Source: Natrarchaeobius halalkaliphilus
Lineage (GTDB): Archaea > Halobacteriota > Halobacteria > Halobacteriales > Natrialbaceae
Assembly: GCF_003841485.1 (NCBI RefSeq)
Contig: NZ_REFY01000003.1
Span: 248,001-312,000 of the forward strand
Direction of reading: 5' to 3'
Length of the DNA: 64,000 nucleotides
Position 1 is the first letter of the stretch; every line of letters starts with the position of its first letter. A program made the position numbers and the translations under genes. The notes beneath the pieces are model-generated. The model was not told where the DNA came from, made no database searches, and worked only from the letters and a program-made list of their open reading frames with translations. Shown in pieces: positions 9,120 to 16,973 of the stretch.

Positions 9120-9659
9120 ATGGTTCAGTGCGAGATGTGTGGCGCCGAGACGTCGTCTCCGAAGACTATCAAGGTCGAGGGTGCGAAACTCGACGTGTGT
9201 TCGAACTGCACCGACTTCGGCACTGAAGTCAAACAGCCCACCAGTTCGACCGCGTCGACGAAGTACTCGACGGGATCGAGCTCCGGGGAGAGTTCGGGCA
9301 CGTCGAACAGTCAGTCCGCTTCCTCCTCGAGTTCGGGCGGCTCGAGTTCTCGCCGGAAAGATATGTTCGACGACATGGACGAACTCGTCACGGACTACGA
9401 CGATCGCGTCCGAAACGCTCGTGAAAAAAAGGGAATCAGCCAGTCGGATCTCGCGAACGAACTCAACGAGAAGGCGAGTCTGATTCGTAAGATCGAGCGC
9501 GGCGATACGCTTCCGAGCGATCGCGTACAGTCGAAGATAGAGCGGTTCCTCGAAATCGATCTCAGTGCGGAGGGGGGTTCAGCCGACGATGCGGAGTGGT
9601 CGGGCGGATCGTCCTCGGGGAGTTACACGCTCGGTGACGTCGTCAAGCGAAAGGATTGA
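9120..9659 (+). CDS. archaeal multiprotein bridging factor aMBF1
   Basis: A 179-residue transcription or translation accessory protein. An N-terminal zinc ribbon (CEMC at residues 4-7, CSNC at 27-30) is followed by a long Ser/Gly-rich linker and a cro/C1-type helix-turn-helix (about residues 90-145, with ISQSDLANELNEKASLIRKIERG). This is the architecture of archaeal MBF1 (TIGR00270-like). It is monocistronic, with ctttatcac about 27 bases before the ATG. The linker is unusually serine-rich, and a similar low-complexity tail precedes the C-terminal SYTLGDVVKRKD. Confidence 0.88.
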   Translation: MVQCEMCGAETSSPKTIKVEGAKLDVCSNCTDFGTEVKQPTSSTASTKYSTGSSSGESSGTSNSQSASSSSSGGSSSRRKDMFDDMDELVTDYDDRVRNAREKKGISQSDLANELNEKASLIRKIERGDTLPSDRVQSKIERFLEIDLSAEGGSADDAEWSGGSSSGSYTLGDVVKRKD

Positions 9660-9732: not shown

Positions 9733-10377
9733 ATGTTCATCCTCGTCAATCTGAAGACGTACCCGTGTGATCCGGTCGCAGTCGCTGAAGCCGTTCGCGA
9801 CGTCGACGAATCCACCGACGCCCGCATCGGCGTTGCGCCGCAGGCGACTCACCTCGAGCGCGTCGCTGAGACGGGAGCCGAGACGTGGGCCCAGCACGTC
9901 GATCCGATCGAGTACGGCAGCAACACCGGACACACGCTCGCGGAATCCGTCGCCGATGCCGGCGCGGTCGGCACGCTGATCAATCACTCGGAGCATCGAC
10001 TCAAACTGGCAGATATCGACGGTGCAGTTCGGGCAGCATCGCGAACGGATCTCGAGACCGTCGTCTGTGCGAACAACCCCGCCCAGGTCGGTGCCGCAGC
10101 CGCGCTCGGTCCGGATGCGGTCGCCGTCGAGCCACCGGAGCTCATCGGGACCGGAACGCCGGTCAGTCAGGCCGATCCCGAAGTCGTCGAAGGAGCGGTC
10201 GGGGCCGCTGCGAGCGTCGATATCGACGTCTCAGTTCTCTGCGGTGCGGGAATCAGCACAGGCGACGACGTCGTCTCCGCCCGCGACCTCGGCTCCGAAG
10301 GCGTTCTCCTCGCAAGCGGCGTGGCCAAGGCGGACGATCCACGGACCGCACTCGAGGATCTCGTCGACCCCCTCTGA
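9733..10377 (+). CDS. tpiA: triosephosphate isomerase
   Basis: Interconverts dihydroxyacetone phosphate and glyceraldehyde 3-phosphate. At 214 residues it has the short archaeal TIM-barrel length. Visible catalytic residues are Asn6 and Lys8 (VNLKTY), the His in INHSEHR, and the Glu in [11 protein letters not shown]; the phosphate-binding loop CGAGIS and the final [12 protein letters not shown] strand are also present. Flanked by aMBF1 and a conserved haloarchaeal protein, with no obvious operon partner. Confidence 0.95.
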
Positions 10378-10444: not shown

Positions 10445-10807
10445 ATGAGCGACCTCGCCGCCGCGGGCGTGACACTCGAGAACCGACTCATGAGCCACGG
10501 TATCTACGTAATCGACTTCGAACGGGACGAACGAACGGTCTCGATCGAGTACGAAGTCGTCGCCAGCGCGCCGGCGGTGACGACGGACGAAGTCGGCGCC
10601 GTCGTTCGAACGCTACTGACCGTCGCAGACGAGCGCGAGTGGGCACCGGGTCGACTCGAGGCGACCTCCCGAACGACGGACGGCGACGTTCGAGGTCACT
10701 GGCACGTCGAGAAGGAGTGGTTCGATCGACTGTCCAGCGATCTCACCGAACTCGAATTTTCGAACCTCGTTCTCGGAACGATCACGGACGATCCGATTGA
10801 AGAGTAG
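10445..10807 (+). CDS. conserved haloarchaeal protein, unknown function
   Basis: A 120-residue, acidic soluble protein. The pattern LENRLMSHGIYVIDFERDE then IEYEVVASAP, DEVGAVVRTL and a final WFDRLSSDLTELEFSNLVLGTI looks like a conserved haloarchaeal small-protein family. A larger open frame begins inside tpiA, but the ATG at 10445 is preceded by an AT-rich actttttgtc box at the leaderless distance. It lies 45 bases before the TIR-domain gene on the same strand. No function can be assigned. Confidence 0.65.
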   Translation: MSDLAAAGVTLENRLMSHGIYVIDFERDERTVSIEYEVVASAPAVTTDEVGAVVRTLLTVADEREWAPGRLEATSRTTDGDVRGHWHVEKEWFDRLSSDLTELEFSNLVLGTITDDPIEE

Positions 10808-10852
10808 TTAGATTAATGCGCATTGGCGAGAGTATTTTCTGCGATCGACATC

Positions 10853-11464
10853 ATGACCGGAGAACAGGTGTACGTTTCGCACGCACCCGGCGACCTCGAG
10901 TTCGTTCAGGAGCTGCTTTCGACGGTTCGAAACTTCCCGTTCGGTATTCACATCGCACTCGAAGAGGTCGAGTCCAACAGTATGCGTGCCCGTCTCGAAG
11001 GACGACTCGTCGAGAGCGACGTCGTCGTCGCCGTTCTGACCGAGCAAGCGTCGCGTTCGCGGTGGGTCAATCAAGAACTCGGGTACGCTCGCTCGCAGGA
11101 AGTTTCGATCCTTCCGGTCTTCGACGACGAACGGTACCGGGGTGGATTCATCTCCGATCTCGAGGGTGTACAGATCGACCGCGAGCGTCCCGCAAAGACG
11201 ATTTTCGAACTCCTCTCGAGGCTTCGGTGCGAACTCGAACCGCTCGGTCCGCTGTCCGTGCCGAACTGGTTCATCCAATTTCCGTGTCCGAGTTCTCACT
11301 GCCCAGAACGCGTCACCCTCGACATCGAACGATCTCAGTCGAAACTCTGGAACCGACACCGCCGCGGCCACGTCCTCACGGCGTCGTGTGACCACTGCCG
11401 TGCGACCTATTCGTTCGATCCGGCAACGATCGGCTTCGTTCGGCGCGACGAACGCGGTCAGTAA
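10853..11464 (+). CDS. TIR-domain protein with C-terminal zinc ribbon
   Basis: A 203-residue protein whose first ~130 residues resemble the TIR_2 fold. They start QVYVSHAPGD, continue with LVESDVVVAVLTEQASRSRWVNQELGYARS, and then a VSILPVF strand. The Glu of WVNQELGYA aligns with the catalytic Glu of NAD-cleaving TIR domains. The C-terminal ~70 residues hold two Cys pairs (CPSSHCP and CDHC) that look like a zinc ribbon. An upstream in-frame ATG (10823) would add ten residues without homology, so 10853 is chosen. It converges with the zinc-ribbon/J-domain gene, overlapping by 7 bases. Signalling or defence is inferred from the fold only. Confidence 0.7.
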   Translation: MTGEQVYVSHAPGDLEFVQELLSTVRNFPFGIHIALEEVESNSMRARLEGRLVESDVVVAVLTEQASRSRWVNQELGYARSQEVSILPVFDDERYRGGFISDLEGVQIDRERPAKTIFELLSRLRCELEPLGPLSVPNWFIQFPCPSSHCPERVTLDIERSQSKLWNRHRRGHVLTASCDHCRATYSFDPATIGFVRRDERGQ

Positions 11465-12183
11465 CCGTCCCGGCGGAGACGCTCGTAGGCGTCCGTAACG
11501 AGTTCGAACGCCGACAGGCTTCCAGTCGGCCGATCGGGGTGTGCGCGTTTGACCTGTCCGCGGTACGCAGTTTGAATCTCGTCCGGACTTGCTCCCTTCT
11601 CGACGCCGAGAACGTCTCGAGCTTTCGTCTTTCGCATGGCGACGCTGGCGATGATCCCGTCGGCTTTGGCCCGCTCTTTACACGACGGACAGAACCGCTC
11701 GGTTCGTCCGTCCACGGTCGTTATCCTGAACGGTTCGACCTCGATCAGTTCGGTACACTGCGTACACCGGTACGACTGCTCGTCCCCGAGTTCGTCGGTC
11801 GGTTCTTCGACGATCTCCCCTTGGCCGCGGTCGTCGGTTCGACCGTCGTCCCCAGATCGGTTGGCGTCATCTTCGGCCGTCGCTGTTGCGTTTCCGTCCG
11901 ACGACGTCTTCGCACACGACCGACAGCAGGAGACGACCGTCCCGTCGGCCAGTGGAATCTCCTCGAGTTCGCTCTCGAGAAAGACGCTCTCACAGCCGTC
12001 ACAGCTATTCCGCCGCTGATCGAGCGTCGAAACGCTCTCTGCAGCTCTTCGTGCGTGTGGTTCACAGTGTGGACAGCAGGCGACCGCGTCACCGTTGGGC
12101 ATCGTCACCGTCGACAACTTCTCGAGTGGGACCGTCCGGCCACAGCCGTCACAGCCGGCTCGGTTCTTTTCGGTGACGGTCAT
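11458..12183 (-). CDS. zinc-ribbon protein with C-terminal J domain
   Basis: A 241-residue protein with three tandem CxxC...CxxC zinc-ribbon-like units: CDGCG/CCPHC, CDGCE/CCRSC and CTQCT/CPSC, spaced about 45-80 residues apart. The last ~55 residues are a J domain with the signature HPD tripeptide (KRAHPDRP), which normally stimulates Hsp70/DnaK ATPase. It is not a classical DnaJ: the J domain is at the C-terminus and there is no Gly/Phe region. A substrate-recognition co-chaperone is plausible. It is convergent with the TIR gene. Confidence 0.75.
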   Translation of the reverse strand: MTVTEKNRAGCDGCGRTVPLEKLSTVTMPNGDAVACCPHCEPHARRAAESVSTLDQRRNSCDGCESVFLESELEEIPLADGTVVSCCRSCAKTSSDGNATATAEDDANRSGDDGRTDDRGQGEIVEEPTDELGDEQSYRCTQCTELIEVEPFRITTVDGRTERFCPSCKERAKADGIIASVAMRKTKARDVLGVEKGASPDEIQTAYRGQVKRAHPDRPTGSLSAFELVTDAYERLRRDGY

Positions 12184-12375: not shown

Positions 12376-13140
12376 TCAGTTCCGGATGCGTACGATCTCC
12401 TCTTCGAAGACCTTCCGGTTCGGGATGATGTACTCCTCGGAGTCGTCTTCGATTTTCGTGACGAACAGGTCGACTTCCTGGACGATTCCGGCCTGGTTGC
12501 CGATACGAATCCGGTCACCGATACCGTACGGTTGATTGAGCAACAGGTAGATACCCGCCGCACTCGAGACCAGAAAGTCCTTGAACGTGATCGTGCCGAC
12601 GATGACGATTCCCGCCGCGTACACCACGAGCAGAATCAACAGCGGGTAGACGAAGACGCCGATCTGTCCGAGTGCGATCACGAAGGCCACGTACAGGACG
12701 GAGTATTTGACCAGCTTCGGGATCACCGAGACCTCCGGAAGCTTCACACCGCGGAGGTACTCGCTAACTACAAGCTCCGATTTGTCCGCGACGATAAATC
12801 CGAGAATCAGGACCAGAACGGCGATAAACGCCCGGGGAATAAACTCGACGATCCGAAACGCGAACGCATCGGTGTCCAGCAACTGGGCGATGTAGATGGC
12901 TGTCAACACCGCAATGCCGTAGATAAACCACGAACTCAGGCGCGCGACGATGTCCACCGTCGAGGTGCCGATCGACTGTGCGGTCCGCTCGAACGGCGTT
13001 CCCTCGACGGCCTCTGGAACTCCGGACGCCGTCAGTAACTCCCTGTTGAGTCGCCCCACGAGATAGCCCACGACGAGACCGAGCGCGAGTACTGCGGCCG
13101 CGATGACCGCAGGCTCGTCGATGAGCGTCTGCCAGTCCAT
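12376..13140 (-). CDS. MscS-type mechanosensitive ion channel
   Basis: A 254-residue channel of the MscS superfamily. Four hydrophobic helices occupy residues ~10-30, 65-90, 95-120 and 135-165, followed by the MscS beta domain (GDRIRIGNQAGIVQEVDLFVTKIEDD... IIPNRKV). The open frame extends upstream to 13353 inside dacZ, but the ATG at 13140 is the natural start and begins a membrane helix. Only one base separates it from the dacZ stop. Channels of this family release solutes on osmotic downshock, and the linkage to diadenylate cyclase suggests c-di-AMP-linked osmoregulation. Confidence 0.88.
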   Translation of the reverse strand: MDWQTLIDEPAVIAAAVLALGLVVGYLVGRLNRELLTASGVPEAVEGTPFERTAQSIGTSTVDIVARLSSWFIYGIAVLTAIYIAQLLDTDAFAFRIVEFIPRAFIAVLVLILGFIVADKSELVVSEYLRGVKLPEVSVIPKLVKYSVLYVAFVIALGQIGVFVYPLLILLVVYAAGIVIVGTITFKDFLVSSAAGIYLLLNQPYGIGDRIRIGNQAGIVQEVDLFVTKIEDDSEEYIIPNRKVFEEEIVRIRN

Positions 13141-13141
13141 A

Positions 13142-13954
13142 TCAGTACGCCTCCGGATCGACCTCGAGAATAAGTTCACCCGCTTTGAACGCCCGGACGA
13201 GTCCGTCGCTCTCCGAGAGAACGATCGCGATCGCGTTCGTGTCCCGCGTGATCGCACCGCCGGCCATGTGGCGTGCACCGAGCCCCTTCGGAATATCGAC
13301 GCCCTCCGCGGAGGGCTCGAGATACCGGTAGGCCGAGACGATCTTCCCCGCATCGGAGATGACGAACGCCCCGTCGAGTCGAGAGAACTCCTTTAGCATG
13401 ACGTTGACGATCGGATCACCGACGTGGACGTGGGACTTTTCGAAGGGGTTGTACGACAGTGGTCGGGATTTGTTCATCACCTTTCCGGCGTCGCCGACGA
13501 TGAACAACGCACCGACGGGTTTGCCTTTTTGCCCTTTCTGTCCCAGTTCAATCGCCAACTCGAGGACGGCTTTGATCACCTGTGGCTCGGCGCGGGATTT
13601 CGAGAACAGGTCGTAGATCCCCGTCCGGGAGCTGGAGTTAGCCCGGACACGAGAGATCGTGTCGATTTCGTCACCGAAGACGCTGGTCGCACAGACGATT
13701 TCGTCGCCGTCCTCGACGATGTCCTGCTCGAGTGCGCCCTCGAGACCGAACCGGATGCGCTCGGAGACGTCGTCGAACTCGAGGGGCAATTCGACGAACA
13801 CCTCGGCTCCGACCTCGTTTTCCGTCCCGACGACGATCGCATCGATATCCTCGGTCTCGGCAAACTGCTCGTAGTACGAGCCACTGGGCCCAAAGAGCAT
13901 GATCGCATCGACACTCGAGAAGAGTTCCCCGAACACGTCGTCTAACCCGGCCAT
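13142..13954 (-). CDS. dacZ: diadenylate cyclase DacZ
   Basis: Makes cyclic di-AMP from two ATP. The 270-residue protein has an N-terminal regulatory half and a C-terminal DAC domain with both signature motifs: DGA (residues 194-196, in SRLDGAFVISDAGKIV) and RHMA (about residues 228-231, in GARHMAGGAITRDT). This matches the archaeal DacZ class studied in Haloferax volcanii, where c-di-AMP level affects cell size and osmotic behaviour. The MscS channel gene follows one base after its stop on the same strand. Confidence 0.93.
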   Translation of the reverse strand: MAGLDDVFGELFSSVDAIMLFGPSGSYYEQFAETEDIDAIVVGTENEVGAEVFVELPLEFDDVSERIRFGLEGALEQDIVEDGDEIVCATSVFGDEIDTISRVRANSSSRTGIYDLFSKSRAEPQVIKAVLELAIELGQKGQKGKPVGALFIVGDAGKVMNKSRPLSYNPFEKSHVHVGDPIVNVMLKEFSRLDGAFVISDAGKIVSAYRYLEPSAEGVDIPKGLGARHMAGGAITRDTNAIAIVLSESDGLVRAFKAGELILEVDPEAY

Positions 13955-14103: not shown

Positions 14104-14144
14104 GAAACGTGGTGCTTATCCGCCGGTCGTCCCTAGCGGCGTCG

Positions 14145-16973
14145 ATGACAGACGGGGACGTTGCGGCCTTTACACACCTCGGACCCACGGTTCGAGATGC
14201 ACTCTCCGAACGTGGGTTCTCGACGCCGACCGCCCCCCAACGCCTCGCAATCCCGCCGCTTTCGGCCGGCCAGCACACGCTCGTGATCGCTCCGACCGGA
14301 AGTGGGAAGACCGAAACGGCAATGTTACCCGTTTTCGACGACCTCGTCTCCGATGGTCCGCCAGCGGGGTTCGGTGCGCTCTACGTCACTCCCTTGCGAG
14401 CGCTCAATCGGGACATGCGCGAACGCCTTGAGTGGTGGGGTGACGCGCTCGATCTCGACGTCGCGGTACGCCACGGCGATACGACCCAGTATCAGCGGGG
14501 AAAACAAGCGGAGGATCCGCCGGAGATCCTGATCACCACGCCGGAGACGCTCCAGGCGATGTTGACGGGTGAACGCCTTCGGGAAGGACTGACGGACGTC
14601 TCCCACGTCGTGATCGACGAGGTCCACGAACTTGCGGCATCGAAACGCGGCGCACAGCTATCGGTCGGCCTCGAGCGTCTCGCGGATCTGGCCGACGGCT
14701 TTCAGCGCATTGGCCTTTCTGCGACCGTCGGTGAGCCGACGTCGGTCGGGCAGTTTCTGACCGGCGGAAGACCCTGCGAGGTTCGCCAGATCGACGTCGG
14801 AAGCAACGTCGACGTGACGGTTCACGAACCCGAGATCACCGCGGAGGACGAAAAACTCGCAGGGACGTTGCTGACCGAAGCCGATACAGCGAGCCACGTC
14901 AGGCTGATCCGAGAGCTCGTCGACGACCACGAGTCGACGCTGATCTTCGTCAACACGCGACAGACTGCGGAGGCGCTTGGATCGCGATTCACCGAACTCG
15001 GGGCCCCGATCGGGGTCCACCACGGATCGCTCTCGAAGGAGGCGCGGATCGACGTCGAGGACCGGTTCAAGGCGGGCGAACTCGACGGGTTACTCTGTAC
15101 GTCCTCGATGGAACTCGGGATCGACGTCGGTCGGGTAGACCACGTCGTCCAGTACAAGAGTCCACGACAGGTCACGCGGTTACTCCAGCGGATCGGCCGC
15201 GCGGGCCACCGCCGAGACGAGGTCTCGAGCGGAACCATCGTCACGACCCGGCCCGACGACACGTTCGAGGCCATCGCAATCGCACGACGGGCCTGTTCCG
15301 GCGAGGTCGAACCAGCGGCGATCCACGAGGGAAGCCTCGACGTGGTCGCCAACCAGATTCCGGGAATCGTCCAGAGCCGCGGCTCGACGCCCGTTCGAGA
15401 AGCGTACGACACCGTGAGCCGTGCCTATCCGTTTCGCGATCTCCCCGAGGCGACGTTTCGGGAGGTTCTCTCGGAGCTTCACCGCAATCGGGTCGTCTGG
15501 TTCGACGAGGGCGACGACCGAATCGAGACGTCGGGGAGTACCTGGCAGTACGTCTATGCGAATCTCTCGATGATTCCCGACGAGGAGACCTACGAGGTCC
15601 ACGACATCGCCTCGGGTACGCAGATCGGGACACTGGACGAGCGGTTCGTCGTCAACTTCGCCCGCCCTGGAGAGGTGTTCATCCAGCGCGGCGAGATGTG
15701 GCGGATCGCTGAGATCGACGACGACGAGGCCGTCGTCAAGGTCAGCCCGATAGAGGACCCCGCAGGCGAGGTTCCGTCGTGGATCGGCCAGGAGATTCCG
15801 GTCCCGTACGAGATCGCTCGCGAGGTCGGTGAGATTCGAACCGCCGCGGAACCACAGTTCGGTATCGGAGCTGACGCCGCCTCGGTCGGCCGAGAACTCT
15901 CCGGCCGATATCCGGCCGACGAGCGCACGCTCGCGAACGCCTGTGAGCAACTCGAACGCCACGTCGATGCCGAGGCGGCGATGCCGACGGCCGATCGCAT
16001 CGTCTGCGAACGGCACGGACGAAGCGTCGCGTTGAACGCCTGTTTCGGCCACGCGGCGAACGAGACGCTGGGACGGCTTCTTTCCTCGCTGCTCGGCCAG
16101 CAGGCCGGCTCGTCGGTCGGCCTCGAGACGGATCCCTACCGAATCGAACTCGAGGTACCGAGTTCGATCGGGACGAGCGACGTGCTCGCCGTCCTCGAGG
16201 ACACTGATCCCGGACACGTCGAGGCGATCATCGAACTCGGACTCAAGCGCTCGGATGCTCTCGCGTTCAGACTCGCACAGGTCTCTGCGAAGTTCGGCGC
16301 GCTAAAGCGCTGGCAAGGCTCCGGTCGAATGTCGAACGAACGGCTGCTCGCCGCACTCGAGGGGACGCCGATGTACGAGGAAGCGATCCGCGAAGTGTTT
16401 CACGAGGATCTGGCCGTCGACCGCGCCCGAACGATCATAGAGCGAATCCAGTCCGACGATCTCGAGGTGGTGAGCCAGCGGGGCAGAACGCCGATCGGTA
16501 CGGATGGTCGATCGTCGGGAACGGAGCTGTTAGCTCCCGAGAATGCTGATGCGAGCGTCATCAAGACGGTCCGCGAGCGCATTCAAAACGACCGAATACT
16601 CCTGGCCTGCACCCACTGTCGAGAGTGGAAGGCAAAGACGACGGTCAAGCGAGTCCAGGACCAACCCGAGTGTGGCAACTGCGGTTCGACCCGGATCGCG
16701 GCGTTGAACCCGTGGGCCGACGAGGTCGTACAGGCAGTTCAGGCCGAAGAGAAAGACGACGAGCAGGAACGGGTAACCGAACGTGCCTATCGGAGCGCGA
16801 GTCTCGTCCAGGGACACGGTAAACGGGCCGTGATCGCGATGGCAGCCCGCGGAGTCGGCCCACATAACGCGGCCCAGATCATCAACAAACTCCGTGAAAG
16901 CGAAGACGAGTTCTATCGCGACATCCTTTCGAAAGAGCGCGAGTACGCACGAACTCAGTCGTTCTGGGACTAG
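14145..16973 (+). CDS. Lhr-type DEAD/DEAH-box helicase
   Basis: A 942-residue superfamily 2 helicase of the large-helicase-related (Lhr-Core) group, ATP-driven 3'-5' translocases implicated in archaeal DNA repair. Walker A is APTGSGKT (residues 49-56) and Walker B is DEVHEL near residue 157. Motif III SATVG, the second RecA domain with STLIFVNTRQTAEALG and motif VI QRIGRAGHRRDE, and a long winged-helix/Lhr C-terminal region follow. A four-Cys zinc ribbon (CTHC near 821, CGNC near 842) lies near the end. The ATG at 14145 is favoured over 14109 because the protein proper begins at MTDGDVAAF. Confidence 0.9.
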   Translation: MTDGDVAAFTHLGPTVRDALSERGFSTPTAPQRLAIPPLSAGQHTLVIAPTGSGKTETAMLPVFDDLVSDGPPAGFGALYVTPLRALNRDMRERLEWWGDALDLDVAVRHGDTTQYQRGKQAEDPPEILITTPETLQAMLTGERLREGLTDVSHVVIDEVHELAASKRGAQLSVGLERLADLADGFQRIGLSATVGEPTSVGQFLTGGRPCEVRQIDVGSNVDVTVHEPEITAEDEKLAGTLLTEADTASHVRLIRELVDDHESTLIFVNTRQTAEALGSRFTELGAPIGVHHGSLSKEARIDVEDRFKAGELDGLLCTSSMELGIDVGRVDHVVQYKSPRQVTRLLQRIGRAGHRRDEVSSGTIVTTRPDDTFEAIAIARRACSGEVEPAAIHEGSLDVVANQIPGIVQSRGSTPVREAYDTVSRAYPFRDLPEATFREVLSELHRNRVVWFDEGDDRIETSGSTWQYVYANLSMIPDEETYEVHDIASGTQIGTLDERFVVNFARPGEVFIQRGEMWRIAEIDDDEAVVKVSPIEDPAGEVPSWIGQEIPVPYEIAREVGEIRTAAEPQFGIGADAASVGRELSGRYPADERTLANACEQLERHVDAEAAMPTADRIVCERHGRSVALNACFGHAANETLGRLLSSLLGQQAGSSVGLETDPYRIELEVPSSIGTSDVLAVLEDTDPGHVEAIIELGLKRSDALAFRLAQVSAKFGALKRWQGSGRMSNERLLAALEGTPMYEEAIREVFHEDLAVDRARTIIERIQSDDLEVVSQRGRTPIGTDGRSSGTELLAPENADASVIKTVRERIQNDRILLACTHCREWKAKTTVKRVQDQPECGNCGSTRIAALNPWADEVVQAVQAEEKDDEQERVTERAYRSASLVQGHGKRAVIAMAARGVGPHNAAQIINKLRESEDEFYRDILSKEREYARTQSFWD

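Follow-up and report, generated by a model that had tools for sequence, protein, structure and literature searches.

The locus lies in a 64,000-nucleotide stretch of Natrarchaeobius halalkaliphilus DNA, the whole of which is referred to here as the window, and centres on a forward-strand gene (10853..11464, +) encoding a protein of 203 residues. The protein consists of a TIR domain (residues ~4-127), a linker (~128-138) and an Hsp33-like Cys4 domain on the C-terminal (~139-200). The reading frame begins at an ATG, which is preferred over an upstream TTG at 10823 because Met1 is invariant across the family. In Pfam, TIR_2 matches well over its cut-off (2.5e-10, 41.3 bits against 28), the predicted fold is that of a TIR domain, and Glu75 and four cysteines are invariant. 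The first-pass annotation had described a 203-residue protein joining a TIR-like domain to a C-terminal Cys4 zinc domain, a description confirmed by the open reading frame, the TIR_2 match and the invariant cysteines. Family members measure ~186-205 residues and combine a TIR domain bearing a catalytic-type Glu with a C-terminal Cys4 domain.

Among conserved core genes on the same strand, the nearest is that of triosephosphate isomerase (tpi; 9733..10377, +; Pfam TIM 1.2e-35), found near the TIR gene in almost every haloarchaeal locus. Between the two sits a small open reading frame (10451..10807, +), usually conserved at this position and without a family match; its identification as Pcc1 is unsupported. 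Both belong to a conserved run formed by a hisC-like aminotransferase, an AAA kinase, a CDP-alcohol transferase, an HTH protein, triosephosphate isomerase, the small frame and finally the TIR gene, which thereby occupies a fixed chromosomal place in haloarchaea, at the end of the run. The HTH protein (9120-9659), conserved upstream of tpi, carries an N-terminal Cys4 knuckle and is multiprotein-bridging-factor-like. The other window neighbours are a J-domain protein, an MscS-type channel, a diadenylate cyclase and an Lhr helicase. The MscS-type gene and the DacZ-type cyclase gene adjoin on the same strand (12376-13954) and are possibly a c-di-AMP osmoregulation pair. A link between them and the TIR protein, of the kind known for cyclic-nucleotide-activated TIRs, was rejected, as the two genes lie near the TIR gene in this window only. 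The helicase (14142-16973) has WH_Lhr and DEAD_assoc domains and scores high in BrxHI defence models, yet seems to be an Lhr of the ordinary kind.

The AlphaFold2 model of the TIR-zinc protein (mean pLDDT 79) adopts a TIR fold, with low confidence in the region of the BB loop (38-43) and in the linker at 133-137. Its best structural match is the SPARTA TIR domain (Z 16.4, 2.1 Å over 125 residues), and the SARM1 TIR domain aligns at Z 15.5, so the fold first proposed from the letters of the sequence is upheld by structure prediction. Alignment puts Glu75, the last residue of WVNQE (codons 71-75; 11063..11077, +), at the position of the Glu in the WxxxE motif of AbTIR and Brucella TcpB. All 47 aligned proteins, from haloarchaea and methanogens, have Glu75 and the four cysteines (C145, C150, C179 and C182), and the conservation of this Glu among homologues, on which the earlier proposal depended, is thus borne out. 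In a 24-member alignment W71, Q74, E75, G77 and the four cysteines are invariant, and methanogen homologues keep E75, G77, A79, R125, W139 and the same cysteines. A deep alignment reaching ~22% identity retains only 11 invariant columns, E75 among them. The stand-alone TIR NADases AbTIR, TcpB/BtpA and TcpA share with the family the TIR_2 domain, the [ST]HA..D box, the Glu at the WxxxE position and a similar fold. The family differs from them in its added C-terminal Cys4 domain, its core and syntenic distribution, its putative activity and the loss of the WxxxE Trp in methanogen members, W71 being invariant in haloarchaea only.

The same fold is shared by nucleoside 2-deoxyribosyltransferases, and an enzyme of this kind, or a nucleotide N-glycosidase-like one serving nucleotide salvage or clean-up, would fit the common E-[IL]-G-x-A context, the PF05014 matches of the window protein (0.019) and of a methanogen member (0.0053), and the alignment of structures 7o62 and 7m5h with the model at Z 13.7. 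These structures rank below the TIR structures, however, and the N-terminal [FY]-[IV]-[ST]-H...D box is TIR-like. Of the five full-length proteins tested, every one exceeds the TIR_2 cut-off and falls short of that of PF05014, the four methanogen members reaching 40-46 bits with TIR_2, and a deoxyribosyltransferase-like function is quite improbable.

The C-terminal Cys4 domain (residues 139-200; 11267..11452, +) was searched alone as a profile. Its top match is the redox-switch domain of Hsp33 (1xjh, 7.4e-6 over columns 6-61; 1i7f, 3.9e-4), the next unrelated match following at 0.014; B. subtilis Hsp33 reaches only an E of 1.1, and Pfam returns scattered weak zinc-ribbon matches only. In hhalign, the domain aligns with the C-terminus of E. 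coli Hsp33 at a probability of 93% (P 2.4e-7), and the control zinc regions of DnaJ, PyrI and TopA give 0.094, 0.0093 and 9.3e-4. In common with Hsp33 (HslO), the domain has four cysteines with 27-28 residues between the pairs (~30 in Hsp33), a helix between these pairs, and a YxF[DN] strand after the C-terminal CxxC. It departs from Hsp33 in its first cysteine pair, which is Cx4C in haloarchaea or CxxC in methanogens instead of CxC, and in being joined to a TIR domain, with no N-terminal Hsp33 chaperone domain. Because the CxC of Hsp33 is missing from the first pair, redox behaviour does not follow from the resemblance. Zinc ribbons are prone to convergence, which counts against a relation to Hsp33, and the match concerns short Cys-rich domains. 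When the four cysteines of Hsp33 are oxidised, zinc is released and the domain unfolds; client proteins subsequently pass to DnaK/J (PMC7423844). The possible stress role suggested in the first-pass annotation gains support from this Hsp33-like domain.

The zinc domain of the window protein has a net charge of +3, unusually non-acidic for a halophile; equal-length segments of neighbouring proteins average about -5, and 4% of them reach +3. This charge would suit a zinc domain that binds nucleic acid, with a TIR domain that removes nicotinamide from NAD-capped RNA or acts on RNA ends, as part of RNA-processing housekeeping. Cleavage of NAD-RNA is known for archaeal TcpA and for a number of bacterial TIR proteins (PMC10937652), and NAD-RNA has been detected in Haloferax volcanii (PMC10663502). 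Averaged over the family, however, the domain's charge is ~0 among haloarchaea and -1.7 among methanogens, and net charge was rejected as proof of RNA binding, being suggestive in haloarchaea only. The TIR part is also acidic, and TcpO, which has a large negative patch, failed in NAD-RNA decapping (PMC10937652). With no conserved RNA-related partner besides, a dedicated role in RNA processing is unlikely.

On the opposite strand, a convergent gene (11458..12183, -), whose 3' end overlaps that of the TIR gene by 7 bases, encodes a 241-residue protein in which three Cys4 modules are combined with a J domain. Pfam identifies the DnaJ domain at 2e-9 (37.9 bits against a cut-off of 27.8), and the six CxxC knuckles making up the three modules and the HPD at 215-217 are all invariant. 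The J domain with its HPD is common to DnaJ/Hsp40 co-chaperones; the layout differs, the J domain here being C-terminal, behind three separate Cys4 modules. Every module has, in the model, a helix after its second knuckle, and so resembles a treble clef more closely than a classical zinc ribbon. Of the earlier description of this neighbour as three zinc ribbons plus a J domain, the J domain and the number of modules therefore stand and the ribbon type does not. Module number varies elsewhere: the first module is matched repeatedly in the core loci of three genomes (G001, G006 and G013; loci L061 and L064), whose J proteins carry extra Cys4 modules.

Within the haloarchaeal family, the J protein is matched in 92/125 genomes, one of them by the J domain alone. 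Both genes are present in 88 genomes, counting that of the window, and are adjacent and convergent in 83 of these, in keeping with the conserved linkage that the first-pass annotation had anticipated for a functional pair. In five genomes of the Haloterrigena group they are separated by 145-160 kb or placed on different contigs. The TIR gene occurs without the J gene in 16 genomes, its position unchanged in those loci that were examined, and the J protein without the TIR protein in 3; in G079 and G083 loss of the TIR gene has left the J gene where it was. Since either gene can persist when the other is lost and the block as a whole tends to be syntenic, ordinary synteny accounts for much of the adjacency. 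Outside the family, the TIR protein was found in only five genomes of the haloarchaeal class sample (three of one genus, two of another). The same five are the only ones with a close J-protein relative (1e-42 or better), unlinked in two; representing two independent lineages at most, this co-occurrence is suggestive only. The notion of a pair is accordingly supported in part, by the adjacency and by the co-occurrence in outside haloarchaea; the single-gene genomes, the unlinked relatives and the methanogens, which carry the TIR gene alone, speak against it.

Many TIR domains are scaffolds, and the one here might only oligomerise, the protein signalling or scaffolding together with chaperones, the J protein for example. 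The haloarchaeal linkage to the J-domain gene, and the co-occurrence of the two even where unlinked, agree with such an adaptor. The methanogens, however, have no J-protein neighbour, and the retention of a catalytic-type Glu among so few invariant columns is at odds with a purely structural role, which makes a non-catalytic adaptor improbable.

The TIR protein is present in 105/125 genomes of its haloarchaeal family (a count that includes a short, degraded match in G054), nearly always as one copy, and other TIR_2 proteins occur in only 17/125 of the same genomes by hand count. Several genera of the family are without the gene, which is therefore not universally essential. In G054 (core locus L157) only the short match is left and in G071 the gene is split into two frames, both apparently recent losses. 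With the haloarchaeal family profile, full-length homologues of 184-202 residues were found in methanogens of the same phylum: in 46/50 genomes of one order, including 33/33 of the good ones, and in 51/112 genomes of a second family. No J-protein gene lies beside the TIR gene in the methanogen loci, and a methanogen operon or conserved partner was rejected, as no neighbour family recurs in more than 4/19 loci. In the tree, the haloarchaeal and methanogen groups fall on either side of one well-supported branch. Pairwise dN/dS has a median of 0.19 (300 pairs), indicating purifying selection. The distance between TIR proteins correlates positively but noisily with that of housekeeping genes (Spearman 0.46), so that vertical descent rests mainly on synteny and on grouping by lineage. 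One match comes from a large Natrinema replicon of 987 kb that is catalogued as a plasmid. A mobile or viral origin was rejected: no match to the TIR-zinc protein was found in the phage collection, three viral contigs match at ~23% identity with none reaching the zinc domain, and a viral search with the haloarchaeal motifs found no copies. The family is thus old, mostly vertically inherited and nearly always single-copy. It is part of the core genome of one haloarchaeal family and one methanogen order, and a second methanogen family carries it widely.

Defence is the role of most prokaryotic TIR enzymes characterised so far, and the protein could be a constitutive antiviral TIR, Thoeris-like or acting by abortive infection, that has become fixed in these lineages. 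PADLOC ThsB models match it at 6e-7, and Pfam ThsB_TIR does so just above its cut-off. The likeness to Thoeris ThsB consists of the TIR domain and this weak profile match; the window gene differs in its extra zinc domain and in having neither a ThsA partner nor a defence neighbourhood, and no ThsA or other effector gene is found among the window neighbours. Its near-universal, syntenic distribution also contrasts with the sporadic one of other TIR_2 proteins, and no viral or phage copies were found. A fixed antiviral TIR is decidedly unlikely. The patchy spread and the defence or mobile context typical of mobile anti-phage genes are not what is seen, given the 105/125 and 33/33 genomes and the fixed haloarchaeal synteny, and the stable inheritance of a core protein speaks against a defence gene that roams. 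The suggestion of a defence role in the first-pass annotation is accordingly not supported: within the family the gene is near-universal, mostly single-copy and syntenic, it is core or widespread in two methanogen groups, its flanks are housekeeping genes with no defence system nearby, and searches of phage and viral collections did not find it.

The reading that we favour, tentatively, is that of a resident housekeeping or stress TIR glycohydrolase, acting on NAD+ or NAD-RNA and governed by a zinc/thiol switch. The TIR N-glycosidase would act on NAD+ or an NAD-like end, either free NAD+ or NAD-capped RNA; an archaeal TcpA cleaves both NAD+ and NAD-RNA in a Glu-dependent manner (PMC10937652). 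The Hsp33-like domain would set this activity, restraining the enzyme while zinc-bound and reduced; oxidation or loss of zinc would unfold the domain and release the TIR activity, as a graded metabolic stress response and not as antiviral suicide. In haloarchaea, the zinc/J-domain co-chaperone may help to reset or monitor the enzyme. It would be inessential to the function, because the methanogens have no J gene there. For the TIR-zinc protein, then, catalysis and redox control are inferred, as is any contact with the J protein. The fuller proposal, a TIR NAD(P)+/NAD-RNA glycohydrolase under an Hsp33-type switch that acts on core physiology as a conserved, non-immune regulator of oxidative stress in haloarchaea and methanogens, coupled to the J protein in haloarchaea, is doubtful.

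To our knowledge, work on prokaryotic TIR enzymes has dealt almost entirely with antiviral or secreted effectors. Searches for TIR with zinc in haloarchaea, TIR with Hsp33 and Thoeris in haloarchaea found nothing in the literature collection covered, and among papers on TIR and Methanosarcina none, judged by title, concerned the TIR-zinc family. New here are the full-length methanogen homologues, without a J partner or conserved neighbours, and the resemblance of the zinc domain to the Hsp33 switch. In conclusion, the core distribution of the TIR-zinc gene suggests that TIR chemistry takes part in the everyday or stress physiology of archaea, and, if the favoured reading is true, TIR NAD+ chemistry would also have a resident physiological role in these organisms.
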